Counted from the first letter of the stretch, positions 31,637-52,382 are shown. The stretch is DNA of 64,000 nt from Acidobacteria bacterium RIFCSPLOWO2_12_FULL_66_21 (GCA_001767455.1 MELC01000038.1:112753-176752), one strand, 5' to 3'. A program made the numbers and translations. Notes: a model not told the origin generated them from the letters alone.

Positions 31637-31846
31637 ATGGGGCTGCCCGTGCTCAGCTTGGTGGTGACGGCGATTCTCTGGTGCGGACCGGCGGCTCCGG
31701 AGGGCAGGCAGCAGCTCACCTCCGGTCCGAAAGACGTCACGCTCGACAACGGGACGGTTGTGCGGGTCGAAGCAGGCGAACTCGAGGTCCCGGAGAGCAG
31801 GCGAAGGCCTATGGCCGAGATCAGGTCCAAGACACCCGTTCAGTAG
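31637..31846 (+). pseudogene. N-terminal stub of a secreted alpha/beta hydrolase
   Basis: 69 codons. A signal peptide (MGLPVLSLVVTAILW) is followed by KDVTLDNGTVVRVEAGELEV and PESRRRP. That order (strand, GT-V-AE-GELEVPE-R) is the conserved entry of secreted alpha/beta-fold hydrolases of the prolyl-aminopeptidase/tripeptidyl type, which normally continue with the catalytic domain for another 400 residues. Here the frame ends after eleven unrelated codons and runs into the end of the FHA regulator gene. It is therefore a decayed remnant. The assignment rests on one motif. Confidence 0.5.
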
Positions 31847-32483
31847 GTGGAGCACCGACGTCCGACCACTCACGGAATACGGCCCGCTCGGAACCAAACG
31901 TCACCGTGGTTCCGTCAATTAGAGGATGCGGCGCCGCGATCCGCGTCCCGTTCACGTACGTCCCGTTGGTGCTCCCGCAATCCCCGACCGTGGCGCGTCC
32001 GTCCGCGATCACGATGCGCGCGTGCACCCGCGAGACGCTGCTGGCATCGACCCAGACATCGCTTTCGGGGTGCCGCCCGACGACGTTTTCTCCCTCCGCG
32101 AGCGGCAGGATCAGGTCCCGCCATGTCAGCCACCAGCGGCACGACCGATGGGCCGGCGCGCCGGCGGGCGCCGCAAGCTGCTCTGCGTTCCCGCAGAACC
32201 GGTAGCCCCGCCGCGACACCGTGGCGATGTACTTCGGCGATTTCGGGTTGTCGCCGAGCGCCTTTCGGATCTCCGCGGCGGCGTTTCCAAGGTTTGCCTC
32301 GAGGACGACCGCGTCGGGCCAGAGGAGATCCTGCAGCTCCGTCTTCGTAACGAGCGCCGGCCGCCGTTCGAGCAGGATCTGCAGCAGGTCGAACGACTTG
32401 GGCGAAACGTGGACCGGCCGGCCGGCCTGCAGCAGCTCACGGGTCGCCGAGTCGAAGACGAACGCGTCAAAGCGGACTCTCAT
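31821..32483 (-). CDS. Winged-helix transcriptional regulator fused to an FHA domain
   Basis: 220 residues from an ATG at 32483 (a TTG five codons earlier is less likely). Residues 1-95 form an OmpR/CadC-type winged helix: FDAFVFDSATRELLQAGRPV, SPKSFDLLQILLERRPALVT, then LGNAAAEIRKALGDNPKSPK and YIATVSRRGYRF. Residues about 130-205 are a forkhead-associated domain with the phospho-threonine pocket residues GRHPESDVWV, SVSRVHARI and STNGTYVNGTRI. FHA domains bind phospho-threonine, so the DNA-binding activity is probably steered by a Ser/Thr kinase. The gene is divergent from, and 120 bases away from, the FHA/PP2C/kinase operon, making that kinase the natural partner. Confidence 0.88.
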   Translation of the reverse strand: MRVRFDAFVFDSATRELLQAGRPVHVSPKSFDLLQILLERRPALVTKTELQDLLWPDAVVLEANLGNAAAEIRKALGDNPKSPKYIATVSRRGYRFCGNAEQLAAPAGAPAHRSCRWWLTWRDLILPLAEGENVVGRHPESDVWVDASSVSRVHARIVIADGRATVGDCGSTNGTYVNGTRIAAPHPLIDGTTVTFGSERAVFREWSDVGAPPTERVSWT

Positions 32484-32603
32484 CGCGAATCTGTGCAACG
32501 GTTATGGTTTCCCTGAGACATGGCCCGACCGCCCACCCATAATAGCAACACGGAAACACGGAAACACGGAAGGACACGGACCGAAGGCACGGAAGGGCAC
32601 GCA

Positions 32604-33464
32604 ATGGGTCAGACAGTGAAAGCGCCCGACGGGTTGAGCATCTGGAATGCGATGCGCGAAGAGCTGATGCTGAACCTCTATCCGCTGCCGTACACGACGC
32701 TGCCGCCCACGATCTTCTACGTGTACCTGCACCCCGCCGACTTCGATCGGATCGAGGGGATCGTGCACGAACTGGTCGCCCAACTGCAACGAAAGCTCAA
32801 CGACGAGGTGCGGAAGATCAATCAGGGGCGCGAGAAATCAGGCGGGATGCTGTCGCGCCTGATCGCGCAGGAGGAGGCGCCGCCCATCGCAGTGCCCCCC
32901 GGCGGCTGGGAAGTGCACGTCAACGCGGACAGAAACGGCACGCTCCAGCCGGGCCACCTCGGGATCGATTCGACGCTGCCGCTCCCGGCGCCGCTCGAAT
33001 TCGGCGGGCCGGCCACCACGCGCATCGTCAAATCCGTGCTCACGGAAACGGGCCGCAGCAGCACGACGATCGAGGTCGTTCCCGCCTCCGCCGCCAACGC
33101 GGACCTGCGCGAGCGGGCAACGCTGATCTATGACGACGATCAGGGACACCACACCTTCAGCATGCGCAAGGAGACCCTTTCGGTCGGCCGCGGCGGAAGC
33201 TCGGTCTGGATCGACGTCCAGGTGATCACCTCGCCGCAGGTATCGCGCGAGCACTTCCGGCTCCGCCGCGACCGGTCCGGCCGGTTCTTCATCCAGGACG
33301 TCAGCAGCTGGGGGACGTCGGTCAACGACGTGCGGATCCCCGCCGCGGTGAAAGGGCCCGATGGGGTGCTCAGACCCGGCGCGGAACACGAGCTCGTCTC
33401 GCCGGCCCGCATCGATCTCGCCGGCGCGCTGGTGATGCTGTTCGAGGCCAAGCCGCTCACATGA
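32604..33464 (+). CDS. FHA-domain protein with FhaA-like (DUF3662-like) N-terminal domain
   Basis: 286 residues; the ATG at 32604 follows GGAAGG, and the upstream in-frame codons are repeat DNA. Residues 15-75 (IWNAMREELMLNLYPLPYTT, FYVYLHPADFDRIEGIVHEL) resemble the N-terminal domain of actinobacterial FhaA. A linker follows, and residues about 205-285 form an FHA domain: LSVGRGGSSVWIDVQVITSP, QVSREHFRLRRD, SSWGTSVNDVRIP. FhaA-type proteins read kinase phosphorylation and hold cell-wall factors. This is the first gene of an operon whose next genes are a membrane peptide, PP2C phosphatase, kinase and SEDS-PBP. The stop overlaps the next start (ATGA). Confidence 0.85.
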   Translation: MGQTVKAPDGLSIWNAMREELMLNLYPLPYTTLPPTIFYVYLHPADFDRIEGIVHELVAQLQRKLNDEVRKINQGREKSGGMLSRLIAQEEAPPIAVPPGGWEVHVNADRNGTLQPGHLGIDSTLPLPAPLEFGGPATTRIVKSVLTETGRSSTTIEVVPASAANADLRERATLIYDDDQGHHTFSMRKETLSVGRGGSSVWIDVQVITSPQVSREHFRLRRDRSGRFFIQDVSSWGTSVNDVRIPAAVKGPDGVLRPGAEHELVSPARIDLAGALVMLFEAKPLT

Positions 33465-33559
33465 CGACGTTGTACTGGCTGCACTTCGTCTTTCTCGCGG
33501 CGCTCGTCGCCGCCCTCGCGTGCCTGCTCTGGCTTGCGCGGGTATACGACCGTGGCTGA
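33461..33559 (+). CDS. 32-residue membrane peptide in the kinase operon
   Basis: A 33-codon gene overlaps the FHA gene by four bases (ATGA) and overlaps the GTG start of the phosphatase gene by eight bases. The product is one hydrophobic helix (FVFLAALVAALACLLWLA) with a short polar head (MTTLYWLH) and a basic tail (RVYDRG). Being wedged between two operon genes with overlaps at both ends strongly suggests real translation. It may simply couple ribosomes from one gene to the next, or serve as a membrane subunit. No family is recognised. Confidence 0.6.
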   Translation: MTTLYWLHFVFLAALVAALACLLWLARVYDRG

Positions 33560-35276
33560 GCCGCGCACGTTCGCGGGCCCGATGCTGCGCGCCGCGGCGC
33601 GCACGCACCCGGGGCGCGTCCGGGCGAACAACGAGGACGTGCCGCTCGTCGATGCGGCGCGCGGGGTGTTCGGCGTCATCGACGGCATCGGCGGGCATGC
33701 CGGCGGCGAGATCGCGGCGGCGATGGCGAAAGACGTCATCGTGCAGCGGCTCGCGCGGCCCTTGGGCGCTCCGGCGGACCGCGTGCGCGAAGCCATTGCG
33801 ATTGCGAACAACGAGATCTTCAAGCGCGCCGCCGACTCCAGCGATCTCGCGGGAATGGCCTGCGTCATCACGCTCGCGCTCGTGTCCGACGGCCGGCTGA
33901 CGATCGGCCACGTCGGCGATGCGCGGCTCTACAAGCTGCGCGCCGGGGGCATCCGGAAGCTCACGCGCGATCACTCCCCCGTCGGCGAGCGCGAAGACGC
34001 CGGAGAGCTCAGCGAGGCCGACGCGATGCGTCATCCGCACCGCAACGAGGTGTTCCGCGACGTCGGGACGGTCTTCCGCGACAAGGACGAGCAGGAATTC
34101 GTCGACATCATCGACGAACCGCTCGAGCCGGACGCCGCGATCCTCCTGTGCACTGACGGCCTCAGCGACATGCTGCCCGGGTCGACCATCGCCCATATCG
34201 TGCGGCAGCACGCGGGGAGCCCCGAACAGGTCGTCGAGGCGCTGGTTGCCGCCGCGAACGATGCCGGCGGCCGCGACAACATCACCGCCGTGTACGCCGA
34301 GATGCCGCTGTTTGCCGATGCGCTCGCTGGGGGCGCCGGCCAGCGGCTGACGCCGACGGAGCCGGCCGGGGGCAACGCTGCCCAGCCCGACCGGAACGCG
34401 ATGGCCATGCCCGCCGCGCCGGCGCATGTCGGGCGCGCGCGGCGGGCGGCGCGAGCAGTCGTATCGAGCCGCATGACCTGGTTCGCCGCCGGCGCCGTCG
34501 TTGGCGTCATCGGCGCGCTCGCGCTCACGATGTACGTTGCCACCACCCAGGTGCGTGCCCCGCGGACGCTGATCGTTGCGCCGGGCCGCACGTCGTCGTT
34601 CACCAGCATCACCGCCGCGATCGCCTCGGCGAGCCCCGGAGATGTGGTGCGCGTCGAGCCAGGCGTGTACCGCGAAGTGGTCGAAGTCCGCGACGGAATC
34701 GATCTGGTCGCGAGCAGGCCGGGGACCGTGACGATCGTTGCCTCCGCGGATGCCGCCCGGCCGCCCCTGTCGATCGTCGGCGCCCTGAACGTCCGGATCG
34801 CCGGAATCAGGATTGAGGCGGAGAAGTCGGCCGAGATCGGCGTCCGGATCACGGCGCCCGAGGCCACACTGGAGCTTGTCGAAATCGTGGGGCCGTTTCG
34901 CCACGCGTTTGCCCTCTCGCCCGGATCGTCCATCAGCGTGCGTGGCAGCCGAATCGCGGTCACGGGCACGCTGCTCGCGGTGCCCGACGATGGTCACGCG
35001 ACATTCGTCAACTCCATCCTGATGCGCACCGCCACCACAGCATTGAGCGAACCGGCGATCTCCGCGAGCCCGTCAGCCCACCTCGTCCTGCGCGGAAACG
35101 TGTTCAACGGTTTTGGCTCCGACATCGTCGAGGGCGTCACGGAGGCGCAGCGCGCGCAGCTCGTCGGAGGCAACACCGTCGTCGCCGCCGGCCGTGGCGG
35201 GCCCGGTGTGTCAGAGCCGGCGGCGGGACGCGGGTCGAGCGTGCCCCGGTCACGCACCCCAAGGGGCGGCCGCTGA
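33552..35276 (+). CDS. Membrane PP2C-type Ser/Thr phosphatase with external beta-helix domain
   Basis: 574 residues from a GTG at 33552. Residues 10-250 are a PP2C catalytic domain with all metal-site motifs: VRANNEDVPL, FGVIDGIGGHAGGEIAA, GHVGDARLYKL, RDHSPVGE, CTDGLSDMLPG and GGRDNITAV. After a linker a single helix (residues about 309-333) crosses the membrane. The external part (340-540) looks like a right-handed beta-helix: SFTSITAAIASASPGDVVRV, repeated short strands ending in isoleucine/valine ladders, and the final VLRGNVFNGFG. The PstP phosphatase of actinobacteria has the same topology but a different outer domain. It would reverse the action of the kinase encoded next (one-base overlap, TGATG). 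Confidence 0.9.
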   Translation: MAEPRTFAGPMLRAAARTHPGRVRANNEDVPLVDAARGVFGVIDGIGGHAGGEIAAAMAKDVIVQRLARPLGAPADRVREAIAIANNEIFKRAADSSDLAGMACVITLALVSDGRLTIGHVGDARLYKLRAGGIRKLTRDHSPVGEREDAGELSEADAMRHPHRNEVFRDVGTVFRDKDEQEFVDIIDEPLEPDAAILLCTDGLSDMLPGSTIAHIVRQHAGSPEQVVEALVAAANDAGGRDNITAVYAEMPLFADALAGGAGQRLTPTEPAGGNAAQPDRNAMAMPAAPAHVGRARRAARAVVSSRMTWFAAGAVVGVIGALALTMYVATTQVRAPRTLIVAPGRTSSFTSITAAIASASPGDVVRVEPGVYREVVEVRDGIDLVASRPGTVTIVASADAARPPLSIVGALNVRIAGIRIEAEKSAEIGVRITAPEATLELVEIVGPFRHAFALSPGSSISVRGSRIAVTGTLLAVPDDGHATFVNSILMRTATTALSEPAISASPSAHLVLRGNVFNGFGSDIVEGVTEAQRAQLVGGNTVVAAGRGGPGVSEPAAGRGSSVPRSRTPRGGR

Positions 35277-37189
35277 TGGCGCGTGGCGACTTCGAGATCG
35301 TCGACGAGAAGCCGATCGGCTGCGGCCAGTTCGGAACGGTGTTCCGTGCCCGGCGCCGCGGCGACGGCAGGATCGCGGCGCTCAAACTGATCCTGCACCA
35401 GGGGGAGAACGGGGCGGACGCGATCGCGGCGGAGCGGCGCGGCGCAATCCTCCAGCAGGGGTTCGCGTCGCTGCACGGCATGGTGCCAGACGTGTTCGAG
35501 TTCGGCGACGACGGAAACGACTTCTTCATCGCGATGGAGCTCGTCGAGGGCCCTTCGCTCGAGGAACGGCTGCGCGGCGGTGCCCTTCCCTGCGACGAGG
35601 CGGTCGGCCATGCGTTGTGGTTGTGCGAGTTCCTCGACAAGGCACACGCGTTCTCGCCGGTGGTGGAAGGACGTCCCTACCGGCTGCTTCACAACGACCT
35701 CAAACCGGCGCACCTGAAGATCCCCGATACCGGCGAGCGGAAGGTGCTCGACTTCGGCATCGCGAAAGCGCTCGAGGAGACACGGGAGCTCGCGACCGAC
35801 GTGGGCCGCACGATCGCGTATGCCGCCCCGGAACGCCTGCTGTCCGAGCACGTCAACGTGCACGCGGATTTCTGGTCGCTGGGCGTGGTGCTCTATGAAA
35901 TGGCGTCGGGCCATCGGCCGTACCCGGCCCTCGAGGGCCCGCGTTATCGCCGTCAGCTGTACAGCGCGATCACGACAAATGCGCCCCGGGCGCCGCTGCC
36001 ACGTGACTGCCCGCAGCACCTGCAGGGCATCATCAACCGGCTGCTCGCGTTTCAGCCGGAGCACCGCTACCAGAGCGCGGCCGAGATCCACGCGGACCTC
36101 GAGCGGTTTGCCAGGGGGGAGACTCCGGCGGCCGCGGCCTACTTCGACACGCCGCTGACGGTGCCGGTGGCGAGGACGCCGGGTGCCACGGTCGCGGAGC
36201 TGTCACCGGTGTCGCTCGTCCCGCCGCCGGTGATCCCGTCGATACCACCGACCGATCCGGTGCCCCCCTCTGGCTCGCCGCGAGCGGCTATCCCGCCGAC
36301 GGAACCCACCCGTCCAGTCGAAATTCGTCCGGCGTCACGCCGGTCGTTTGCGAGCCGCCTGGCAACCGCGACGCTGACGATGGCGTTCCTGTTGATCGTG
36401 GTCACCGAAGGCGTGGCCTGGCTGTTCGCGGAGCGTTTCCGCGACACCCTTCCGTCGATCGACGAGCGCACGGTGACGGCGAGCCGGGGGGCGTACGACG
36501 CCGTCGAGCGCTGGTCGCTGTTCGATCTCGGCCTCAGGCTGCGCGTGAACAGGCCGCTCGTGTCCAGGCTGCGCACGGTCGGCGATCAGGTGATTGCCGA
36601 CTACCGCCGCGAGCTGCCGACGATGGGGCCCGAAGAATGGAGCCAGGCCCAGGCCGCGTTCAACTGGACGCGAGCGCTCTCGCCGCACGACACCAGTCTG
36701 CGAGCGAAGGAGCTCACGGCGGAGGGCCACGTTCGGCGCCTCGCGGCGCAGAAGGCGCGGCCGGCGGCGAGCGCGACCGCGATGGCGCAGACTGCGGTCG
36801 CGCGCTTTCGGGATGCCGCTCTGTCCGATCCGCGCTCGTTCGATCCGTACGTCGCGATGGCCGTGACACAGGTCTACGCGCTGGGCGATGTCGACGGCGC
36901 GCTGTCGTCGCTCGAGGAGGCAACGAAGAGGGGCTACCCGGCGACAAGACGCGAGACGGCGCTGCGGGGAGACGCATACATGCGCCGTGGGCTGACGGGC
37001 GGCAAACGCGCGGCCGTGCTCACGGGCGACGAGCGCAACGGCGCGCTCGTCCAGGCCAGAGTCGATTTCGAACAATGTGTCTCCTGGTTCTCACAGATCG
37101 TGGACTTCGGGAATGCGGCGCACAACCTCGAATCGTGCAAGGCGGAGATTCGCCGGATCGATCGGCAAATCGACGTCGAAGGTTGGTGA
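35276..37189 (+). CDS. Membrane Ser/Thr protein kinase with atypical catalytic loop
   Basis: 637 residues. Kinase domain residues 5-275: glycine loop IGCGQFGTVFRAR, lysine in AALKLIL, catalytic loop LLHNDLKPAHLKI (H139-N-D141), DFG at 159-161 in VLDFGIAK, YAAPERL and FWSLGVVLYEMASG. The catalytic aspartate and lysine are kept, but the arginine of HRD is asparagine and the metal-binding asparagine (position 146) is histidine. A proline-rich linker precedes one membrane helix (about 362-384). The external region is helical with TPR-like spacing (FDPYVAMAVTQVYALGDVDG, ATRRETALRGDAYMRRG). It could sense the envelope and act on the FHA proteins and the SEDS-PBP. Activity needs testing because of the altered loop. 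Confidence 0.88.
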   Translation: MARGDFEIVDEKPIGCGQFGTVFRARRRGDGRIAALKLILHQGENGADAIAAERRGAILQQGFASLHGMVPDVFEFGDDGNDFFIAMELVEGPSLEERLRGGALPCDEAVGHALWLCEFLDKAHAFSPVVEGRPYRLLHNDLKPAHLKIPDTGERKVLDFGIAKALEETRELATDVGRTIAYAAPERLLSEHVNVHADFWSLGVVLYEMASGHRPYPALEGPRYRRQLYSAITTNAPRAPLPRDCPQHLQGIINRLLAFQPEHRYQSAAEIHADLERFARGETPAAAAYFDTPLTVPVARTPGATVAELSPVSLVPPPVIPSIPPTDPVPPSGSPRAAIPPTEPTRPVEIRPASRRSFASRLATATLTMAFLLIVVTEGVAWLFAERFRDTLPSIDERTVTASRGAYDAVERWSLFDLGLRLRVNRPLVSRLRTVGDQVIADYRRELPTMGPEEWSQAQAAFNWTRALSPHDTSLRAKELTAEGHVRRLAAQKARPAASATAMAQTAVARFRDAALSDPRSFDPYVAMAVTQVYALGDVDGALSSLEEATKRGYPATRRETALRGDAYMRRGLTGGKRAAVLTGDERNGALVQARVDFEQCVSWFSQIVDFGNAAHNLESCKAEIRRIDRQIDVEGW

Positions 37190-37191
37190 CC

Positions 37192-40100
37192 ATGCGTGTC
37201 ATCGCGCCAGCCCCGGCCTTCAGCCGCACGTCCGGACGGCAGCAGCGCTCGCTCAACGTCGAGTTGCTCGGCCTGGCCGCCGCGTCGATCGTCGTGCTCT
37301 TCGGAATCGTGCTCGCGTACGCGGCGAAAGTGGCCAGGGTGGACGAGGTCGCGCCCGCCGGCGGCGTCATCCCGCTCTACGCGCTCGCTTCCCCCGCGGA
37401 TCTCGAGCCGGTGCTGACGCAGTTCCCCTCGCCGATCGAGCGGCAGACGGCGGCCCTCGCCCTCTACCGGCGCGCGACGTCGCCGCGGGCGCCCCTCGAT
37501 CACGTGGGCGCCCTGGCCGACGTGAGCGTTCCAGCCGCCACCGTCCGCGCCGATCGACGCCTGGTGCGGCTCGGCGCCGAGCTGGCTCGCCGCCCCGGTC
37601 TCAGCGAGGTCCGTGTCTTGTCCCGTTCCGACATCGTCTCGATGAAACCGCGGCTCGCCGTGCGAAGCCTGGCCCAGTTCAATCGTCGCGTCGCGCGCGC
37701 GATGGCCGTGTTCATCGCCGCGTTCTGGGTCGCGCACCTGCTCCGGCGCTGGCGCCGGCGGCACGACGACCCCCTCGTATTGCCGGCACTCATGCTGCTC
37801 TGCGGCGTCGGTCTCATGACGATGATCGCGTTGCGCGATCCGCTGCGCGACACGATCGCCGCGAGCGCCTTCGCGAGTGGCACCGCGCTCGGCATGGTGC
37901 TCCTCGTGCTGGCATCGGAGGTGGACTTCGAAGCGTCGCCGCTCCGGCGCGCCGTGGCCCTCCCGCTCGCGCTCGCCCTCGCGCTCGCCACGATGCTGCT
38001 CGCCTTCGGGAGCGGACCGGGCTCGAGCGGAGTGAAAGTCAACCTGTTCGGCGCGCAGCCTGTGGAAGTCATCCGGCTGCTCGTCGTGTTTGCGCTTGCG
38101 GCGTACTTCGGCCGCCGTCTCGAGCTGGTGCGCGAGCTGTCGGAGCCCCCGACCGCGTCACGCCCGTGGCTGCGCTACCTCAGCGTGCCGCGGTGGAGAG
38201 ACGTGCGGCCGGTCGTGGTGAGCATGGCCCTGGTCCTGGCCTTCTTCTTCCTCCAGAAGGACCTCGGGCCCGCGCTCGTCCTCTCCTGCGTGTTCCTCGG
38301 TCTGTTCGGCATCGCGCGCGGCAAGGTGGGCCTGGTCGTCGCCGGATTTGCGCTGCTCCTGGCGGGATTCACCGTCGCGTACTGGACCGGGGTGCCGTCG
38401 CTCGTGCGCGACCGCGTCATGATCTGGGGCGACCCGTGGAACAACGGCGTGCCTGGCGGAAACCACGTGGCGCACGGTCTATGGGCGCTGGCGACGGGCG
38501 GGCCGTGGGGCAGCGGTGCCGGACTGGGCAGCCCGAACGCGATCCCTGAAGGCCACACCGATTTCGTGCTCGCTGCCGTCGGCGAGGAGCTCGGCTACGT
38601 GGGCCTGGCGGTCGTCGTCGCGCTGTACGGGTTCCTGTGCTGGCGCTGCCTGCGGATCGCGCTGCGCGCGCCGGGCGACTTCTCGACGTTCCTGGCGGCG
38701 GGCGTGGTGCTCGTGCTCAGCGTGCAGGCGTTCGTCATCGCCGCCGGCCTGCTCGCGCTCGTGCCGCTCTCCGGCGTCGTGACGCCGTTTCTGAGCTACG
38801 GCCGCTCGTCGATGCTGGCCAATTGCCTCGCCCTCGGCCTCGTGCTGTCGGTGGGACGCCGGCAGGCGGACGCGCGGGAACACATGCGGCGGCCCGTTCG
38901 CATGCTTGGCGCCGTGCTGGCCGTCGCCGGCGCGGTCATCCTCTCGCGCGTCACCTGGGTGCAGGTCGTCCATGCCGACGAGATGGCGGCGGCCTCGAGC
39001 CTGACGCAGCAGGCGGATGGCGGATACCGCTTCGAGTACAACCCGCGGCTCCTCTCGGCGGCGCGCACGCTGGCGCGCGGCACCATCTACGACCGCAACC
39101 GGCTGCCGCTCGCAACCAGCCGGCCGGATGAAATCGCCACGCTGGCGGCCACCTACGATGCGGCGGGCGGGGTGGCGCCCGAGGCGTGCAGCGACCTCTC
39201 CACCCGTTGCTACCCGCTCGGCGGGTTTGCGTTTCACGCGGTGGGGGACTGGACGCACCAGGCGAACTGGGCCGCGCGGAACTCCTCGTACGTCGAGCGC
39301 GACAGCGACGCGCGGCTGAAAGGCTACGACGATCGCGCGCAGGTCGTTGACGTGGTCAATCCACGCACCGGCCGGCGTGACCGCGCGATCCGCCGTGATT
39401 TCAGCGTGCTGCTGCCGCTCGTTCGCCAGAGATATCGGTCCGGCGGCGATGCCGTGCGGGCGCTGCGATCGCGCGACCGCGACGTGCACAGCTCGCTGGA
39501 CGCGAGGCTCCAGGTGCGCGTGGCCGCGGCGCTGCGAGACGGCATTCTGTCAGGCGGGTTCGCGCGGGGCGCCGCTGTCGTCCTCGATGCCGGCACCGGC
39601 GAGGTCCTTGCGGCGGCAAGCTATCCATGGCCCGATGCGAGCGACCTGGAACGAGCGAGCCTGGGGCCGATGGATCGCGACGGCGCGGCACGGTGGCTCG
39701 ACCGGGCTCGCTACGGCCTCTACGCCCCGGGCTCCACGTTCAAGCTCGTCGTCGCGGGGGCCGCGCTGCGCGGCCATCACGACGGCGCGCGGTTCACGTG
39801 CGTGCGGCTGCCGGACGGCCGCGTGGGCAACTACGTGCGCGGATCGTCCCGGCCCGTTCGCGACGACCCGATGGACACGGCGCCTCACGGCGACGTGGAT
39901 CTCGACCGCGGGCTGATCGTCTCGTGCAACGCGTACTTCGCGCAGCTTGCCGTTGCGCTCGGACCGCGCGCCGTGCTCGACGCGGCGGCGCCGTTCCAGA
40001 TCGACGTGGCGCGCACGGCCACGCCCGAAGCCCTGCGGCCGTGGCTGGCGCAGGTCGGCTACGGGCAGGGCGAGGCCCTCGTGTCGCCGCTCAAGCTGGC

Positions 40101-40569
40101 GCGCGTATCCGCGTCCATCGGATCGGGCGGGACGATCGCACCGGTGCGGTGGGGGCCGGTGGAGGCAACGCGGCAGGATGACGCCTCGCCGCGGTTCCTC
40201 TCGGGAGAAGACGCGGACCGCCTCGCGCGCGCCATGCGGGCCGTGGTGACGTCCGGCACGGGGCGGGCGCTGCGATCGCATGCGGTCGCGATCGCCGGCA
40301 AGACCGGCACGGCTGAAGTCACCGGCGCGCCCGCGCACTCGTGGTTCACCGGCTTCGCGCCGTATGGACCCGGCGGTTCTGCGAGCGCCCAGCGCCCGGT
40401 GCCCGGCGCGGCCGGTTTGTCCAGCGCCCGGCGCCCAGCGCCCAGCGCCCGGGATCGCCGTATCGCCTTCGCGGTGATCGTGGAGAACGCGGGCTATGGG
40501 AGCCGCGCCGCGGCACCGATCGCGGGACACATCGTGTCGGCCGCGAAGGAACTCGGACTGATTCGGTAG
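37192..40569 (+). CDS. SEDS (RodA/FtsW) glycosyltransferase fused to a class B penicillin-binding protein
   Basis: 1125 residues. Residues 1-560 are a SEDS polymerase: multiple membrane helices, with KDLGPALVLSCVFLGLFG, the motif PEGHTDFVLAAVGEELG (H455-T-D457-F) carrying the acidic residue implicated in SEDS activity, and VTPFLSYGRSSML. A hydrophilic insert of about 115 residues (47-163) separates helices 1 and 2. After one more helix (LGAVLAVAGAVILSRVTWVQ) the class B PBP begins with RGTIYDRNRLPLATS (629-). Transpeptidase motifs are complete: S848-T-F-K851, S911-C-N913 and K1037-T-G-T. It would polymerise and crosslink peptidoglycan in one chain. It starts two bases after the kinase stop. 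A repeat-derived insert lies at about 1063-1088, and the stop codon is inside a repeat element. Confidence 0.93.
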   Translation: MRVIAPAPAFSRTSGRQQRSLNVELLGLAAASIVVLFGIVLAYAAKVARVDEVAPAGGVIPLYALASPADLEPVLTQFPSPIERQTAALALYRRATSPRAPLDHVGALADVSVPAATVRADRRLVRLGAELARRPGLSEVRVLSRSDIVSMKPRLAVRSLAQFNRRVARAMAVFIAAFWVAHLLRRWRRRHDDPLVLPALMLLCGVGLMTMIALRDPLRDTIAASAFASGTALGMVLLVLASEVDFEASPLRRAVALPLALALALATMLLAFGSGPGSSGVKVNLFGAQPVEVIRLLVVFALAAYFGRRLELVRELSEPPTASRPWLRYLSVPRWRDVRPVVVSMALVLAFFFLQKDLGPALVLSCVFLGLFGIARGKVGLVVAGFALLLAGFTVAYWTGVPSLVRDRVMIWGDPWNNGVPGGNHVAHGLWALATGGPWGSGAGLGSPNAIPEGHTDFVLAAVGEELGYVGLAVVVALYGFLCWRCLRIALRAPGDFSTFLAAGVVLVLSVQAFVIAAGLLALVPLSGVVTPFLSYGRSSMLANCLALGLVLSVGRRQADAREHMRRPVRMLGAVLAVAGAVILSRVTWVQVVHADEMAAASSLTQQADGGYRFEYNPRLLSAARTLARGTIYDRNRLPLATSRPDEIATLAATYDAAGGVAPEACSDLSTRCYPLGGFAFHAVGDWTHQANWAARNSSYVERDSDARLKGYDDRAQVVDVVNPRTGRRDRAIRRDFSVLLPLVRQRYRSGGDAVRALRSRDRDVHSSLDARLQVRVAAALRDGILSGGFARGAAVVLDAGTGEVLAAASYPWPDASDLERASLGPMDRDGAARWLDRARYGLYAPGSTFKLVVAGAALRGHHDGARFTCVRLPDGRVGNYVRGSSRPVRDDPMDTAPHGDVDLDRGLIVSCNAYFAQLAVALGPRAVLDAAAPFQIDVARTATPEALRPWLAQVGYGQGEALVSPLKLARVSASIGSGGTIAPVRWGPVEATRQDDASPRFLSGEDADRLARAMRAVVTSGTGRALRSHAVAIAGKTGTAEVTGAPAHSWFTGFAPYGPGGSASAQRPVPGAAGLSSARRPAPSARDRRIAFAVIVENAGYGSRAAAPIAGHIVSAAKELGLIR
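40378..40455 (+). repeat. In-frame GCGCCCAG-rich repeat insert in the PBP domain
   Basis: Several copies of CAGCGCCCGG and GCGCCCAGCGCCC follow each other and are translated as alanine/proline/arginine-rich residues about 1063-1088, between GFAPYGPGG and RRIAFAVIVENAGYG. In ordinary class B PBPs these two elements are separated by only a few residues, so the repeat is an insertion into a surface hairpin behind the KTGT strand. Confidence 0.65.
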
Positions 40570-40605: not shown

Positions 40606-41385
40606 ATGACACCGCTCTTGAACGCCGGCCGCAAGCTGCACGCGCGCGTGCGCAGTTTCTTCGACACGCCCCTTGACGCCACGGCGCTGCCTCTCGAACT
40701 CCTTCAGGCCGCGCTCGACCAGCTCGAACGACAAGCGCAGCCGTCCGGCCGCGGGGCGCGCGTCTTCCCGTACAACCGCGTCGTCGTGCACGTGGCGCAG
40801 CCCGACGGAGATCGCGCGGCGATCGAGGCGGTCTTCGTCGAGTTCCCCGCGCGCCTCCGCGAACGGCTCGCGGAGGTCCGCTGCGACCTGCCCGCGGACT
40901 TTCAGGCCCGCGCCGCGTACTACGACGAGGCGCCCGCCGGCCGCGGCGTGCTGTGGGTCGAGTGCGGCAACGAAGGCGAAGCTCACACGGTCGCGGATCG
41001 CGAGGTGCCCCGGCTCCGCGTGACCGTCGTGAAGGGGCAATGCGAACAGCCTGAGTACGCATTCCAGGAAGGGGGCATCGCGATCGGCCGCGGGACCGAG
41101 CCCACCGACACCCTCGGTCGCGTGCGGCGCAACCACGTCGCCTTTCTCGAGGTGCGCGACGGGGTGAGCGAGACCGTCGCCCGCGCGCACGCGCGGCTGC
41201 AGTTCGATCCCGCCACACGGTCGTACCAGTTGTTCAACGAGTCCGGCAGCAACCCGACGTTCCTGCTGCGCGAGGGGCGGAGCATCCGTCTCGCGCCACG
41301 GGACCCCCGCGGCGTGCGCGTGCAATCGGGCGACGAGGTGCAGCTGGGGCGTGCGGTCCTGAAACTTGGCATCGAGGACCGCTGA
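40606..41385 (+). CDS. FHA-domain protein with FhaA-like N-terminal domain
   Basis: 259 residues. Residues 1-105 (LNAGRKLHARVRSFFDTPLD, LPLELLQAALDQLERQAQ, ARVFPYNRVVVHVAQPDG) match the pattern of the FhaA N-terminal (DUF3662-like) domain. Residues about 160-255 form an FHA domain, with GIAIGRGTEPTDTLGRVRRN, VSETVARAHARLQFD and SYQLFNESGSNPTFLLREG. The FHA loop is less canonical than in the first FHA gene of the operon; the SxxH-type pocket is ARAHARL. It lies 36 bases after the SEDS-PBP gene, separated by a palindrome. Together with the first FHA gene it brackets the phosphatase-kinase-polymerase set, and likely scaffolds phosphorylated partners. Confidence 0.82.
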   Translation: MTPLLNAGRKLHARVRSFFDTPLDATALPLELLQAALDQLERQAQPSGRGARVFPYNRVVVHVAQPDGDRAAIEAVFVEFPARLRERLAEVRCDLPADFQARAAYYDEAPAGRGVLWVECGNEGEAHTVADREVPRLRVTVVKGQCEQPEYAFQEGGIAIGRGTEPTDTLGRVRRNHVAFLEVRDGVSETVARAHARLQFDPATRSYQLFNESGSNPTFLLREGRSIRLAPRDPRGVRVQSGDEVQLGRAVLKLGIEDR

Positions 41386-45804: not shown

Positions 45805-48411
45805 TTATTCGCATCGCAAGGCCACTGCGGGATCGACCCGCATCGCGCGGCGCGCCGGAACGGCCGCCGCGAGAACAGAAACGAGCGCGAGCGTCACAGC
45901 AACGGCCGCGAACACGCCGGCGTCGAGCACGTCCACTTCATAGAGCAGTGTCCGGAGGAGCCGCGTGAGCGCCACCGACGCGAGAAGCCCCAGGAGGAGC
46001 CCCGAGGCGGCCGGCGCGAGACCTTGCCGCAGCACGAGACGCAGCACCGTAGCCCGGTCGGCGCCGAGTGCGATGCGCAAGCCGAACTCCCGCGTCCGCT
46101 GCGCAACGAGATACGCCGTCACGCCGTACAGCCCGAAGATCGCCAGCGCAAAAGCGAGCGCCCCGAAGCTGCCGAAGAGCAGCGTGTCGAACCGCCGCGA
46201 CGAGACCGAGTCGTCGAGCATCTGCCGCACGGTGGTGACGTTGGCGATTGGCTGCGACGGATCGACGGCCACGACCGCCTCGCGCAACGCGGGCGCGAGA
46301 GCCGCAGGGTCGGTGTCGCCACGGACGCGCACCGCGATGAGGGCGTGGGTCGGTGCGTCCCTGCGGTCCGCGCAAATGAACACCATCGGGAGCGGCACGT
46401 CGTTGCTGAGCAGCTGACGCACGTCGGCCGCCACGCCCACCACCGTGAACGTTCCTTCCGCCGCGAGATTGAGTTGTTGGCCCAGCGCGGAACGTCCAGG
46501 AAACGCGCGTCGAGCCATGCGGTCGTTGATGACGGCACTCCCGGCGCCTGTCGCTCCCTCGTCCCCACACTCCCGCCCGCTGTGGATCGGAATGCCAAAC
46601 GTCCGAAAATTCGCCGACCCCACTTCGGCAATCCCAATCGGAGACGACTCGCTCGAGGGGAGTCCCGTCTTCGCTCCCGGAGGCCATGGCATCGTCATCA
46701 CCAAGTGGCTCAAACTGCTCGGCACGGCGGCCGATTCGACGGCAGGCAGTGCGCGGATGCGTTCGATCACGGCGTCGAAGAAGGCCCGGCGCGCCGCGGC
46801 CTCGGCATAGCGTGGACGCGGAAGCGTCAGCGAGGCGGTGATGACGCTGTCGGCATGAAAGCCGCGATCAACCGCGTGAAACCGGACGAGGCTCTTCGCG
46901 AGCAGCGCGGCGCCAATCATCACGACGACCGCTGCGGCGACTTCGAGTGTCACGAGGATCCGTCGCGGCCGGCTGCGGCCGCCGTCGCTCGATCGCCCGG
47001 CGCCCTTCAGCGGTTCCTGCGGATCGGCGCGACCGGCGGACACGGCGGGCGCAACGCCGAAGAACAGGCCGACCCCCAGCGTGACGCCGACCATGAAGAG
47101 CAGCACGTGGGTGTCCAGCGCGATGCCCGGGATCCTCGCCAGTTCCACGGGGCCGAACCTGACGAACGCGCGGAGCGAGTACCGCACGAGGGCGAGGCCG
47201 GGGACGGCGCCCAGAAATGCGAGCAGGACGCTTTCGACCAGCAACTGGCGAACCAGCCGGACGTGACTCGCGCCGAGCGCCATGCGCAGCGCCAGCTCCT
47301 GCCGGCGCACCGCCGCGCGCGCCAGCAGCAGATTGGCCACATTGGCGCACCCGATCAGCAGGACACACATGACGGCACCGAAGAGGAGCGCGAGAGGCGC
47401 GCGAAAATCTCCGTACAAACGCTGGTGGAGCGTCATGACGCGGAGATTGCTCTCGCGCGCCCTTGCCGGCAAGGCGGACACCCGCGATCGACGGAGCGAG
47501 ACCAGGTCGTCACGGCCCGTGGCGGACGAGGCGCCGTCCCGCAGGCGTCCGACGAAGCTGACGTAGAAGAAGCCGCCCGAAGCCATCGAGCGCGGGACGA
47601 GCGGCAGCCAGAAGTCTCTCCGTGCTGGGAATCCGAATCCCGGCGGCATGACCCCGACGACCCTGTAACTGCGGTCGTCCAGCGTGACTTCCCGATTGAG
47701 AACGTCCGGACTCCGCCCAAACGCCCGTGCCCAGAGTGAGTCGCTCAGAAGAACGGCTGGCGGGCCGCCGGCCTGCATCTCGTCTGGCGCGAACACCCGG
47801 CCGAGCGCGGGCTGCACGCGCATGACCTCAAAGAAGCGCAGCGAGACCCTCACGCCCGCCACAACTTCCGGCTGACCGGCGCCGGAGAAGTTCGCGCCTG
47901 TCGTGTTGTACAGGGCGAGCGATTCGAACGAAGGCAGAGCACTCTCCAGTGCGAGCCGCGCCGTGGGCTCGTCCATCAGCCGCGTATCCGTGCCCTGCTG
48001 CACGATCGAGATCGACACGATCCGGTCGGACCGCGGGTACGGCAGCGGACGCAGAAGCACGGCGTTCGCGATGGCAAAGAGCGCGCTGGTTGCCCCGATG
48101 GTGAGGGTCAGCGTCGTCACGGTTGCCAGCGTGAACACCGGGGTCCGCCGCAACTGGCGCCATCCGTAGCGCGCGTCCTGGATGAGGCTGTCGACGGAGG
48201 GGAACCCCCAGATCGCGCGGGACTCCTCGCGCACCCGCGTGAGGTTGCCGACCTCCACCGCCGCGCGGCGACGCGCTTCGATCTCCGGAACGCCCTCGGC
48301 CATGAGGCCTTCGGCCTTCCACACGACGTGCTGTGCCATCTCGTCGCGGAGTTCGTCGTCGAGGCGGCCGCGGCGCAGCCACGCCGTGAGGTGACGGAGG
48401 ATGCGTGTCAT
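45805..48411 (-). CDS. ADOP family permease with N-terminal prefix domain
   Basis: 868 residues. The first 80 form the cytoplasmic prefix helix bundle (MTRILRHLTAWLRRGRLDDE, LRDEMAQHVVWKAEGLMAEG, VPEIEARRRAAVEVGN). The usual plan follows: helix TLATVTTLTLTIGATSALFA, periplasmic domain with VVAGVRVSLRFFEVMRVQPA and EVTLDDRSYRVVGVMPPGF, then CANVANLLLARAAVRRQELA and LRMALGASHVRLVRQLLVES. The second copy ends with REFGLRIALGADRATVLRL and VPARRAMRVDPAVALR. A PadR gene lies 37 bases upstream on the same strand, forming the typical regulator-permease unit. Confidence 0.95.
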   Translation of the reverse strand: MTRILRHLTAWLRRGRLDDELRDEMAQHVVWKAEGLMAEGVPEIEARRRAAVEVGNLTRVREESRAIWGFPSVDSLIQDARYGWRQLRRTPVFTLATVTTLTLTIGATSALFAIANAVLLRPLPYPRSDRIVSISIVQQGTDTRLMDEPTARLALESALPSFESLALYNTTGANFSGAGQPEVVAGVRVSLRFFEVMRVQPALGRVFAPDEMQAGGPPAVLLSDSLWARAFGRSPDVLNREVTLDDRSYRVVGVMPPGFGFPARRDFWLPLVPRSMASGGFFYVSFVGRLRDGASSATGRDDLVSLRRSRVSALPARARESNLRVMTLHQRLYGDFRAPLALLFGAVMCVLLIGCANVANLLLARAAVRRQELALRMALGASHVRLVRQLLVESVLLAFLGAVPGLALVRYSLRAFVRFGPVELARIPGIALDTHVLLFMVGVTLGVGLFFGVAPAVSAGRADPQEPLKGAGRSSDGGRSRPRRILVTLEVAAAVVVMIGAALLAKSLVRFHAVDRGFHADSVITASLTLPRPRYAEAAARRAFFDAVIERIRALPAVESAAVPSSLSHLVMTMPWPPGAKTGLPSSESSPIGIAEVGSANFRTFGIPIHSGRECGDEGATGAGSAVINDRMARRAFPGRSALGQQLNLAAEGTFTVVGVAADVRQLLSNDVPLPMVFICADRRDAPTHALIAVRVRGDTDPAALAPALREAVVAVDPSQPIANVTTVRQMLDDSVSSRRFDTLLFGSFGALAFALAIFGLYGVTAYLVAQRTREFGLRIALGADRATVLRLVLRQGLAPAASGLLLGLLASVALTRLLRTLLYEVDVLDAGVFAAVAVTLALVSVLAAAVPARRAMRVDPAVALRCE

Positions 48412-49404: not shown

Positions 49405-49740
49405 ATGGCGCCCAAGGAAGGCAGCCTCATTCAGGGGAATCTCGACGTGTTGATCCTTCGCGCGCTCAGCGAGGGACCCTCGCACGGCTATGGCATCGCC
49501 CGGTGGGTGCATGCCGCGACCGACGGCGCGCTGGCCATCGAGGACCGCGCGCTCTACATCGCATTACACCGGCTCGAAGAGCGCGGCTGGCTCGTGGCCT
49601 CTTGGGGTGCCTCAGAGAACAACCGGCGCGCCCGCTACTACCGGCTGTCTCCATCAGGACGCCGCGCGCTGGCGCGCAAACAGCGCGAATGGTCGGCGCA
49701 CGCGGCGGCGATGTGCAAGGCGCTGGCGGTCAAGCCATGA
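49405..49740 (+). CDS. PadR family transcriptional regulator
   Basis: 111 residues: LIQGNLDVLILRALSEGPSH, GYGIARWVHAATDGALAIED, RALYIALHRLEERGWLVASW and ENNRRARYYRLSPSGRRALA. It is about half identical by eye to the PadR at 48449-48790, which is divergently oriented, so the two units probably arose by duplication and inversion. GGGGAGG lies upstream of the ATG. The stop overlaps the permease start (ATGA), and autoregulation of the regulator-permease unit is expected. Confidence 0.95.
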   Translation: MAPKEGSLIQGNLDVLILRALSEGPSHGYGIARWVHAATDGALAIEDRALYIALHRLEERGWLVASWGASENNRRARYYRLSPSGRRALARKQREWSAHAAAMCKALAVKP

Positions 49741-52382
49741 ACGACCTGCGCCGAATCTCCCACGACATCGAGTCCGAAATCTCCGATCATCTCGAGCGCC
49801 GCGTTCGCGATCTCCGCGAGACTGGACTGACCGAGGCCGCCGCGCGCGAGCACGCGGAGACCGAGTTCGGCGACGTGTCCGCGACCGAGCGAGAGCTCCT
49901 GACCATCGACGCGAGGCTCGACAGGCAACGCCGGCGCGCCCGCGTCTGGTCGGGCATCGGTAGCGACGTGCGGACGGTAACGCGGCGCCTGGCCGGCCAG
50001 CCCGGAGCAACCGCGCTCACCATCCTCACGCTCGCGCTGGCGATCGGCGTTGCCGCCGCCGTCTTCAGCATCGTCGATCAGCTCATCCTGCGGCCGCCGC
50101 CGTTCCTCCACGCCGATCGGCTCGTGAACGTCCTGCATCAGACCGGCCCGAACCGCCCCGGCGGCGGCCTCACTCCTGAGAAGATTCTCGGCTGGCAGCA
50201 GCAGTTTGCGGTGTTCGAGCGCCTGGAATCCTATGCGGGTGCCTCCTTCGACCTGACCGAAGCCGTCGAGCCGCAACAGATCGATGCGCGTGTCGTCTCG
50301 CTGGGATTGTTCGACATGCTCGGCATCAGAACGCACATCGGACGGCCGTTTGCCGAGGGGGACGGCGCGCCGGGCAGCGAGAAGGTGGCCATCCTCTCGC
50401 ACGAGTTCTGGACGTCACGGTTTGGCGGATCACCAAGCGTGCTCGGATCGCACATCGTGCTCAACGACGAGCGCTATACCGTCATCGGCGTGCTGCGTCC
50501 GGGCACGACGCTGCTCACCGGCGATGAGCCAGTCTGGCTTCCGTTCGACCTGGATGCCTGGGGCGCGGGGACGCCTGCGTACAGGTTCTTCGGCATCGGC
50601 CGGCTGAACGCCGCACTCGACGCCAGCCAGGCCAGGACGACTGCGGACGCCATTGCCGCGGAGCTGGGCCAGTCGACGCCCCTCACAGGCACCTGGTATC
50701 TCGGCATCGACGAAAAGCGCTCCGCGCAACTGACGCCCACGACCCGGCAGACGCTGTTCGTGCTGCTCGGCGCCGTCACCTTGTTGCTGCTCATCGCCTG
50801 CGTGAACGTCACGAGCTTTGCGCTCGGACAGACGCTCCGCCGGGAGCGTGAGCTGCGGCTGCGCGCAGCCATCGGGGCTGGCCGGTGGAGACTCCTTCGG
50901 GAATGCCTCGTCGAAACGCTGCTGCTGGCGGCCGCCGCGGGTCTGGCGGCAGCGGTGATCGCACGGATCGCGCTTGCCGTGCTGCTCGCGGCTGCTCCCG
51001 CCGGTCTGGCCTTCATGACCACGAGAGCCGTGGAGATCGACGTCAGAGTGTTCGCGATCATGACCGCCGCCGCGCTGACGGCGGGCCTGCTGGCTGGCCT
51101 CCTTCCCGGGTTCCGCTCGTCGCGCGTGGATCTGTCGAGCGCGCTTCGAGACGGCACTCGCGGATCCGAACGGGGTCTTTCCTTCGGCGGCGGTATCGGC
51201 GCACTTGTCGTGATCGAGGTTGCGATGGCGATGGTCCTGCTGGTTGGATCGACCCTCATGTCGCGGTCCCTGATCGCGTTTCACGCGCGCGAGCCGGGAT
51301 TCGACGTCGGCAAACTGATGACCGTGGAGATGGCGCTGCCGTCGCATCGTTACCCAAACGAACAGGCACGGCGCGAGTTCTTCGGCGCGCTCGACGCGGC
51401 GCTCAGAAGGCAACCCGGCATCGAGGCATCGGCGTATGCCTGGGGTATCCCGCCCGCCGCCGGGTCCTGGTTAGCCCGGCTTCTTCAGGCAGAAGGGCGT
51501 GAGCCGGCCTCCGGCAGCCTCGAATTTTTCGCCAACGCCGTGTCGCCCGCCTACTTCGAGACGACCGGCACGCGGCTGCTGGCGGGCAGAGCGTTCACGC
51601 CGGAGGATGCAGACGACCAGGTGATTGTGAGCGAGGCAGTCGCGCGACTGCTGTGGGGCGACGAGCCGGCTGTCGGCAGACGGCTGAGGGACTCACCCAA
51701 AGACCAATGGCTGACCGTTGTTGGCGTGGCCGGCAATGTCGAGTCCCGCCGGGCCGGCCAGCGTTCGGACCTGCAGATGTACGTCCCTCTTGCGTTGCCT
51801 CGCGGGTCCTCTGTGCCAGCCGCCACCGGACGCGGACGCTCGTACATCAGGCAGCTCCTGATCGTCAGAGCCTCGGATCCGGCGCTGGCGCAGGCCGCGG
51901 TCAGGCAACAGGTCCGCGTTTTGGACCCGTATCAGCCTGTCGGCACGTTCGTGTCCGGCACCGAAATATACGCCAAGCCGTTCGCGCAACAGCAGTTCCT
52001 GCTCACGGTGATGAGCGTATTCGCGGGAGTGGCGCTTCTGCTGGCCGCGATGGGGATTTTCGGCATCCTCTCGCAGGCCGTGACCGAGCGCCGCCGCGAG
52101 ATCGGGATTCGCATGGCCCTCGGCGCTGGCAGCGCCCGTCTCGTTCGCCTGCTCGTCGGCCGAGGGGTCGGGCTCGCGGCCCTCGGCGCCGCCGTCGGCA
52201 CCATCGCGTCACTCTTCGGCGTTCGTGTGCTCGAAGGACTGTTGTTCGGCGTGACGCCGTTCGACGCGCCGAGCTTCCTGTTCGTCGTCGCTGTAATCCT
52301 CATCGTCGCGCTCACTGCCTGCTGGTGGCCGGCGACCCGTGCACTCGCCGTGGACCCGGCGGAAGTGCTGAGGAGCGGATAA
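49737..52382 (+). CDS. ADOP family permease with N-terminal prefix domain
   Basis: 881 residues from the ATG overlapping the PadR stop; an earlier in-frame start inside padR is rejected. The prefix (MNDLRRISHDIESEISDHLE, RRVRDLRETGLTEAAAREHA, ETEFGD) precedes LTILTLALAIGVAAAVFSIV. The periplasmic domain has QIDARVVSLGLFDMLGIRTH and LNDERYTVIGVLRPGTTL; the middle has LLIACVNVTSFALGQTLRRE and RELRLRAAIGAGRWRLLREC. The end reads RREIGIRMALGAGSARLVRL and WWPATRALAVDPAEVLRS. The mid motif CVNVTSFALGQ differs from the common CANVANLLLAR, so this copy has drifted. Confidence 0.94.
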   Translation: MNDLRRISHDIESEISDHLERRVRDLRETGLTEAAAREHAETEFGDVSATERELLTIDARLDRQRRRARVWSGIGSDVRTVTRRLAGQPGATALTILTLALAIGVAAAVFSIVDQLILRPPPFLHADRLVNVLHQTGPNRPGGGLTPEKILGWQQQFAVFERLESYAGASFDLTEAVEPQQIDARVVSLGLFDMLGIRTHIGRPFAEGDGAPGSEKVAILSHEFWTSRFGGSPSVLGSHIVLNDERYTVIGVLRPGTTLLTGDEPVWLPFDLDAWGAGTPAYRFFGIGRLNAALDASQARTTADAIAAELGQSTPLTGTWYLGIDEKRSAQLTPTTRQTLFVLLGAVTLLLLIACVNVTSFALGQTLRRERELRLRAAIGAGRWRLLRECLVETLLLAAAAGLAAAVIARIALAVLLAAAPAGLAFMTTRAVEIDVRVFAIMTAAALTAGLLAGLLPGFRSSRVDLSSALRDGTRGSERGLSFGGGIGALVVIEVAMAMVLLVGSTLMSRSLIAFHAREPGFDVGKLMTVEMALPSHRYPNEQARREFFGALDAALRRQPGIEASAYAWGIPPAAGSWLARLLQAEGREPASGSLEFFANAVSPAYFETTGTRLLAGRAFTPEDADDQVIVSEAVARLLWGDEPAVGRRLRDSPKDQWLTVVGVAGNVESRRAGQRSDLQMYVPLALPRGSSVPAATGRGRSYIRQLLIVRASDPALAQAAVRQQVRVLDPYQPVGTFVSGTEIYAKPFAQQQFLLTVMSVFAGVALLLAAMGIFGILSQAVTERRREIGIRMALGAGSARLVRLLVGRGVGLAALGAAVGTIASLFGVRVLEGLLFGVTPFDAPSFLFVVAVILIVALTACWWPATRALAVDPAEVLRSG

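Follow-up and report, generated by a model that had tools for sequence, protein, structure and literature searches.

A SEDS polymerase and a class B penicillin-binding protein in one reading frame within a kinase, phosphatase and FHA gene cassette of an Acidobacteria genome

Known SEDS-PBP systems and the fused locus

The window analysed here is a 64,000 nt stretch of a soil acidobacterium, Acidobacteria bacterium RIFCSPLOWO2_12_FULL_66_21 (MELC01000038.1:112753-176752). It contains a gene for a 1125-residue protein in which a SEDS polymerase is followed, in the same frame, by a class B penicillin-binding protein (PBP). The gene is part of a cassette with genes for a Ser/Thr kinase, a PP2C phosphatase and FHA proteins (Table 1). 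SEDS-PBP fusions in a single open reading frame (ORF) were already stated to exist in a 2023 paper, with Rhodococcus RHA1 cited as an example (PMC10449877), and the fusion as such is not new. In open-access papers no description was found of the acidobacterial clade, the accessory cassette, the N-terminal domain of the protein, or a SEDS loop that lacks the conserved Trp.

The actinobacterial fhaA-fhaB-pstP-rodA-pbpA-pknA-pknB locus (e.g., in Tsukamurella) resembles the cassette in having an FhaA-like FHA protein, a PP2C phosphatase, a Ser/Thr kinase, a SEDS protein and a PBP. The mycobacterial locus has been linked to cell-wall synthesis and division (PMC6554272). However, rodA and pbpA are separate genes there, whereas one fused protein is encoded here; the actinobacterial kinase is of the PASTA type, whereas the cassette kinase has no PASTA; and the gene order differs, the kinase being upstream here. 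The fusion also has an extra N-terminal periplasmic domain, unlike the proteins of the actinobacterial locus, and the cassette is accessory and patchy in distribution while the actinobacterial locus is conserved in its phylum. Relative to actinobacterial RodA and PbpA, the fusion forms a clade of its own in trees of both halves, with weak support for the deep branches.

Rhodococcus plasmids (pLW2, pFiD188 and a plasmid of R. pseudokoreensis) likewise carry natural single-ORF SEDS-PBP proteins. Those of pFiD188 and of pLW2, a conjugative plasmid, have PP2C and FHA neighbours as in the cassette, but neither region has an annotated kinase of the window type beside the fusion. The Rhodococcus fusions are phylogenetically separate, and the pLW2 copy is without the N-terminal periplasmic domain. 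RodA-PBP2 and FtsW-FtsI of E. coli have the same two enzymatic domains, and D262, E114, R210 and the PBP motifs are common to them and the fusion. They are, however, separate proteins with no kinase cassette, and at the positions of their R48, R101 and W102 the fusion has other residues. Engineered RodA-PBP2 and SpoVE-SpoVD fusions have been shown to be active (PMC10449877, PMC6207328). In these the SEDS C-terminus is joined to the PBP N-terminus as in the native protein, but they are laboratory-made with Gly/Ser linkers and have no N-terminal extension. The FHA-linked SEDS/PBP pairs of Clostridia are also non-canonical, adjacent and in the same order, and in Monoglobus the FHA gene adjoins the pair; however, these are mostly two overlapping genes, and only two loci from metagenome assemblies (L041 and L044) have one frame.

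The fused reading frame and its domains

The first-pass annotation had described a SEDS polymerase and a class B PBP in one uninterrupted frame, and its coordinates, length and every motif position it cited were verified (H455-T456-D457-F and GEELG in the SEDS half; S848-T-F-K851, S911-C-N913 and K1037-T-G-T in the PBP half). Pfam analysis of the protein places PF01098 at residues 231–557 (E=5e-54, 184 bits vs a cut-off of 26.4) and PF00905 at residues 793–1058 (E=1e-29, 103.7 bits), both well over cut-off. No further Pfam domain was found in the fusion at E 0.001, and GT51 was not matched. Upstream of position 37192 the frame stays open back to 36637. The third-position GC is 0.54 in this upstream stretch vs 0.86–0.91 over the whole fusion gene, and the fusion homologues start at the matching place, directly after the kinase gene. 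Because of this drop and the matching starts, 37192, right after the kinase stop, is the likely position of the start codon.

Relatives were collected by a pattern scan over genomes of 84,980 species, followed by a mechanical ORF check. A single frame crosses both domains in the clade relatives whose contigs span both halves; these come from Acidobacteriota and Rhodothermales, with one bin (L029) of supposed Opitutaceae origin. Twenty-two fusion proteins align end to end, with linkers that vary in length and sequence; the frame of L029 is disturbed near its end. Among the members are the complete chromosome of an isolate (Roseithermus, L031), two genomes assembled into one contig each (G125, G059), and a Spirosoma oryzicola plasmid in RefSeq. 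Most relatives are metagenome-assembled and the homologous genes in Clostridia overlap by a few bases, which would fit an artefact, i.e., two adjacent genes brought into one frame by a frameshift or an assembly join. However, the same architecture is present in more than 20 independent assemblies, including the four just named, and the third-position GC at the junction is of the coding type (0.91 over the linker plus the transmembrane helix of the PBP). An artefact is thereby ruled out for the clade and has negligible probability. No frameshift or join was seen in related genomes, more than 20 of which are open across the junction, nor were separate rodA and pbpA genes found at this locus in close relatives: every complete clade member is fused.

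Both halves had been annotated as carrying complete signatures. This is correct for the PBP motifs and the SEDS catalytic residues, but the SEDS half is not fully canonical, as R48 and Arg101-Trp102 of loop PL2 are replaced. E114, R210 and D262 of E. coli RodA correspond to E292, R408 and D457 of the fusion, which are invariant in the alignment of fusion homologues, and K117 is kept as R295. Loop PL2 is shorter than that of E. coli RodA in most acidobacterial members and is without the conserved Trp. This Trp is also absent from several clostridial SEDS proteins linked to a Ser/Thr kinase, and it is therefore not family-defining. Impaired function of E. coli RodA or B. subtilis SpoVE has been described for an R48A substitution and for changes of the Trp (PMC10449877). 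Since R48, R101 and W102 are replaced here, acceptor handling by the SEDS half may differ from the canonical one.

In the PBP half, the SxxK, SxN and KTG motifs are invariant across the homologues. PF03717 (PBP_dimer) is absent in the window copy, and is found below threshold (E 0.1 to 0.002) in 9 of 20 homologues. An AlphaFold2 model built from 20 aligned proteins has a pLDDT of 84.6 and a pTM of 0.78. The matches listed by a fold search with the whole model were all PBPs, and the structural matches thus bear on the PBP half. These are class B PBPs including PBP3, with a VIA-align Z of about 43, and M. tuberculosis PbpA is among them. The N-terminal transmembrane helix (residues 563–593) and pedestal, and the absence of GT51, are those of a class B PBP. 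The C-terminus of SEDS proteins and the N-terminus of these PBPs are both cytoplasmic, so that the order SEDS then PBP is topologically sound.

The N-terminal extension appears, from the helices of the model, to have a transmembrane-periplasmic-transmembrane topology. AlphaFold2 modeling of residues 44–168 gives a pLDDT of 88.4. Foldseek returned no significant match for this domain, and Pfam likewise none. The sole structural match is ComEA (VIA-align Z 7.5, rmsd 1.7 over 64 residues), where the Z value may reflect a common arrangement; the likeness is a weak lead. Sequence searches gave nothing convincing: one of 20 members matches T2SSK at 0.013, and the PDB search gave no match. The Spirosoma fusion (L122:10267-14238) has an extra insert in the periplasmic N-terminal region, a carboxypeptidase-regulatory-like domain. 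Two fusions of the Rhodothermales type (L136 and L137) have an insert there that looks similar, as judged by eye.

Table 1. Positions of the fusion gene, its parts and the cassette genes in the window
Feature	Position	Strand	Basis and remarks
SEDS::class B PBP fusion gene, 1125 aa + stop	37192..40569	+	One open frame; PF01098 and PF00905; 22-member end-to-end alignment
N-terminal extension, residues 1-190: transmembrane helix, periplasmic domain (about 46-165), second transmembrane helix (predicted)	37192..37761	+	AlphaFold2
SEDS core, residues 191-557	37762..38862	+	PF01098; residue mapping; key residues invariant in homologue alignment
Short linker and PBP transmembrane helix, residues 558-593	38863..38970	+	AlphaFold2 helix 563-593; linker length variable in homologues
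PBP pedestal, residues 594-760	38971..39471	+	Class B PBP structural match from about residue 624
Transpeptidase domain, residues 761-1125; S848xxK851, S911xN913, K1037-T-G	39472..40566	+	PF00905; VIA-align; motifs invariant
Winged-helix + FHA regulator, divergent	31821..32498	-	PF00486 E=1.5e-14, PF00498 E=1.5e-19; start uncertain
FHA1, FhaA-like: FhaA_N-like N-terminal part + FHA domain	32520..33464	+	PF00498 E=1.5e-9
PP2C Ser/Thr phosphatase with C-terminal extension	33534..35276	+	PF00481 E=2e-14; NF033484 E=2e-54, below its cut-off; annotated TTG start uncertain
Transmembrane Ser/Thr protein kinase without PASTA repeats	35276..37189	+	PF00069 E=3e-32
FHA2, second FHA protein	40606..41385	+	PF00498 E=7e-4, slightly under the cut-off for the window copy; 19/19 homologues match

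The cassette, its distribution and its phylogeny

The loci of the relatives were searched with each cassette protein. The order FHA-PP2C-kinase-fusion-FHA is present in 14 of them (L012, L013, L014, L015, L016, L018, L024, L025, L026, L027, L030, L033, L035 and L036); in the remaining loci a member was not detected or the contig ends before the cassette does. The Spirosoma oryzicola plasmid has the order FHA-PP2C-kinase-kinase-fusion-FHA. The catalytic H/D and DFG residues of the kinase are invariant in 15 homologues, and the Gly-Arg and Ser-Arg-x-His type residues of FHA domains are invariant in the FHA1 alignment. FhaA_N is matched by 16 of 16 FHA1 homologues (best 3e-9); the window copy is sub-threshold and the G125 copy is over the gathering score. 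A single scan found no viral relatives of FHA1.

Some members show further gene fusions. In Roseithermus sacchariphilus (L031:5134-9288, CP030158) the PP2C phosphatase is fused in frame ahead of SEDS::PBP, which gives a phosphatase-polymerase-transpeptidase approximately 1384 residues long; the related L136 has the PP2C in a frame of its own. In L024:5809-10092, a metagenome assembly, no stop separates the second FHA from the SEDS::PBP frame, and the synthase and the FHA protein may be fused in one chain of 1427 aa. As read from these frames, the extra fusions tie the putative regulators to the synthase enzyme.

The fusion is found in 6 of 199 sampled Acidobacteriota genomes. Genomes of at least 6.0 Mb make up 13 of the 199 and contain five of the six carriers (hypergeometric p=3e-6, with kinship ignored). 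In one order it is present in 3 of 15 genomes; two of these three belong to a single genus, from which ten genomes were sampled. Of 148 genomes in the phylum sample around Roseithermus, seven have a match in a frame of more than 1200 residues. The cassette is also present in Rhodothermales and on the Spirosoma plasmid. This patchy pattern is that of a putative accessory module, gained and lost.

The SEDS tree unites the fusion proteins in a single clade (100/98), which lies outside the clade of canonical RodA and FtsW (100/100). These members also come together in the transpeptidase tree (98/99), next to L097 on its long branch and outside canonical PBP2 and FtsI. The two trees share many sub-clades, as would be expected from a single fusion followed by co-inheritance within the clade. 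L029 is probably misbinned or recently transferred, because it nests in Terriglobia in both trees. The plasmid fusion of R. pseudokoreensis (L131) is placed among canonical RodA/PBP2 on a long branch, and those of pLW2 and pFiD188 (L123 and L130) form a long branch of their own. Since the Rhodococcus plasmid fusions are separate from the clade, SEDS-PBP fusion probably arose more than once. Two Lachnospiraceae bins (L041:5455-8367 and L044:5467-8496) have SEDS and PBP in one frame and are placed in the trees among relatives with two overlapping genes; these call for caution and may be independent fusions or assembly errors. Repeated independent fusions suggest that SEDS and PBP act as an obligate pair.

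Proposed role and alternative explanations

The fusion is an extra, third SEDS-PBP pair and not the main synthase. We consider it probable that it is an accessory peptidoglycan synthase of one chain, gated by the kinase and phosphatase. The SEDS half would polymerise lipid II in the membrane. Its C-terminus would lead through a short cytoplasmic linker to the PBP transmembrane helix, pedestal and transpeptidase, which would crosslink the new strand made by the SEDS half. The membrane Ser/Thr kinase and PP2C phosphatase would set threonine phosphorylation, and the two FHA proteins, one of them FhaA-like, would read phosphothreonine and gate or place the synthase, the likely effector of this phospho-signalling cassette. 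The mode of action of the cassette would parallel that of the actinobacterial FhaA-PstP-Pkn-RodA-PbpA locus, but it would be an additional module in a cell whose elongasome and divisome pairs are intact, and the synthase would serve a particular growth or stress state.

Several points weigh against this proposal. The columns of R48, R101 and W102 of E. coli RodA are Ala, Val and Asn in the fusion, and the replacement of these acceptor-side residues could mean a weak or changed activity of the polymerase. The deep position of the clade relative to actinobacterial RodA/PbpA and the clostridial kinase-linked pairs is poorly supported (41/19). PASTA has no match in the cassette kinase, which scores 124.6 vs 450 with the PASTA-kinase model NF033483. 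Gene neighbourhood alone does not prove phosphorylation.

The profiles of both halves resemble RodA/FtsW and PBP2, as they would if the protein were a fused RodA-PBP2 that serves as the main elongation synthase in place of a separate pair. This is highly improbable, since the separate pairs exist. Three SEDS genes and nine transpeptidase domains were counted in the source genome (6.5 Mb, 100% complete). One SEDS gene adjoins PBP2, with MreB, MreC and a sub-threshold MreD match, and another lies in a dcw cluster (FtsW/FtsI) together with Mur ligases, MraY and an FtsI-type PBP that bears PASTA. Replacement of the canonical elongasome is ruled out by the RodA-PBP2 pair beside mreB/mreC. The scores of the fusion with the equivalog models TIGR02210 and TIGR02614, 148 and 181 bits, are far below the RodA and FtsW cut-offs of 336.7 and 337.5, and both its rarity in the phylum and its place in the SEDS tree also speak against a main synthase. 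Nearly all of 18 carrier genomes searched hold at least one ordinary SEDS gene beside the fused one; in G211 no ordinary SEDS gene was found, and only two fused copies are listed from that assembly.

The two other alternatives concern the protein itself, and we regard both as unlikely, to a similar degree. The polypeptide could be cut after synthesis, or the PBP could also be started internally, to give two ordinary partners. The linker is short, variable and probably exposed, and an engineered RodA-PBP2 fusion was partly cut in its linker (PMC6207328). However, no protease site is known, and the frame is kept in all members though separate genes would serve equally. This bears on the 1:1 ratio of SEDS to PBP put forward in the first-pass annotation, which follows from one chain provided that the chain stays uncleaved. 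The loss of partner exchange, proposed with it, is plausible; free RodA/PBP2 and FtsW/FtsI remain in the cell alongside the fusion. Alternatively, the SEDS half could be inactive or make little polymer, and the protein would then be mainly a kinase-controlled transpeptidase with a SEDS-derived membrane and docking part. The shortened PL2 loop and the replacement of three residues that are important in E. coli RodA or B. subtilis SpoVE (PMC10449877) favor this, but D457, E292 and R408 are invariant, and the PL2 Trp is missing from several clostridial kinase-linked SEDS proteins as well.

A broader and more tentative extension of the accessory synthase proposal, which we think doubtful, is a self-contained, transferable kinase-gated cassette that crosses phyla, at times on plasmids, and brings its own phospho-switch. 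It would encode a third SEDS-PBP machine in which the acceptor site is altered and a periplasmic domain acts as a sensor. This machine would run apart from the elongasome and divisome and serve some special state of the wall or of growth. Work on how SEDS polymerases and transpeptidases are coupled, and on how Ser/Thr kinases control them, has mostly relied on proteins that are separate and in many cases essential. A native synthase of one chain, encoded together with a kinase, a phosphatase and phospho-readers in cells where the usual machinery is retained, might be removable without cell death, and it offers a natural construct for structural and in vitro work.

The divergent winged-helix/FHA protein is likely a phospho-responsive transcription regulator. 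Its gene (Trans_reg_C and FHA) was found only in the two nearest relatives, L012 and L013. Outside the window, the same genome has a second FHA-rich locus, with three FHA domains in 2.7 kb (G000:C65:3770-6474). Near the cassette are two MacB/FtsX-type permeases (45805–48411, minus strand, and 49503–52382, plus strand), the latter a duplicated permease of the ADOP family (TIGR03434, E=8e-209).

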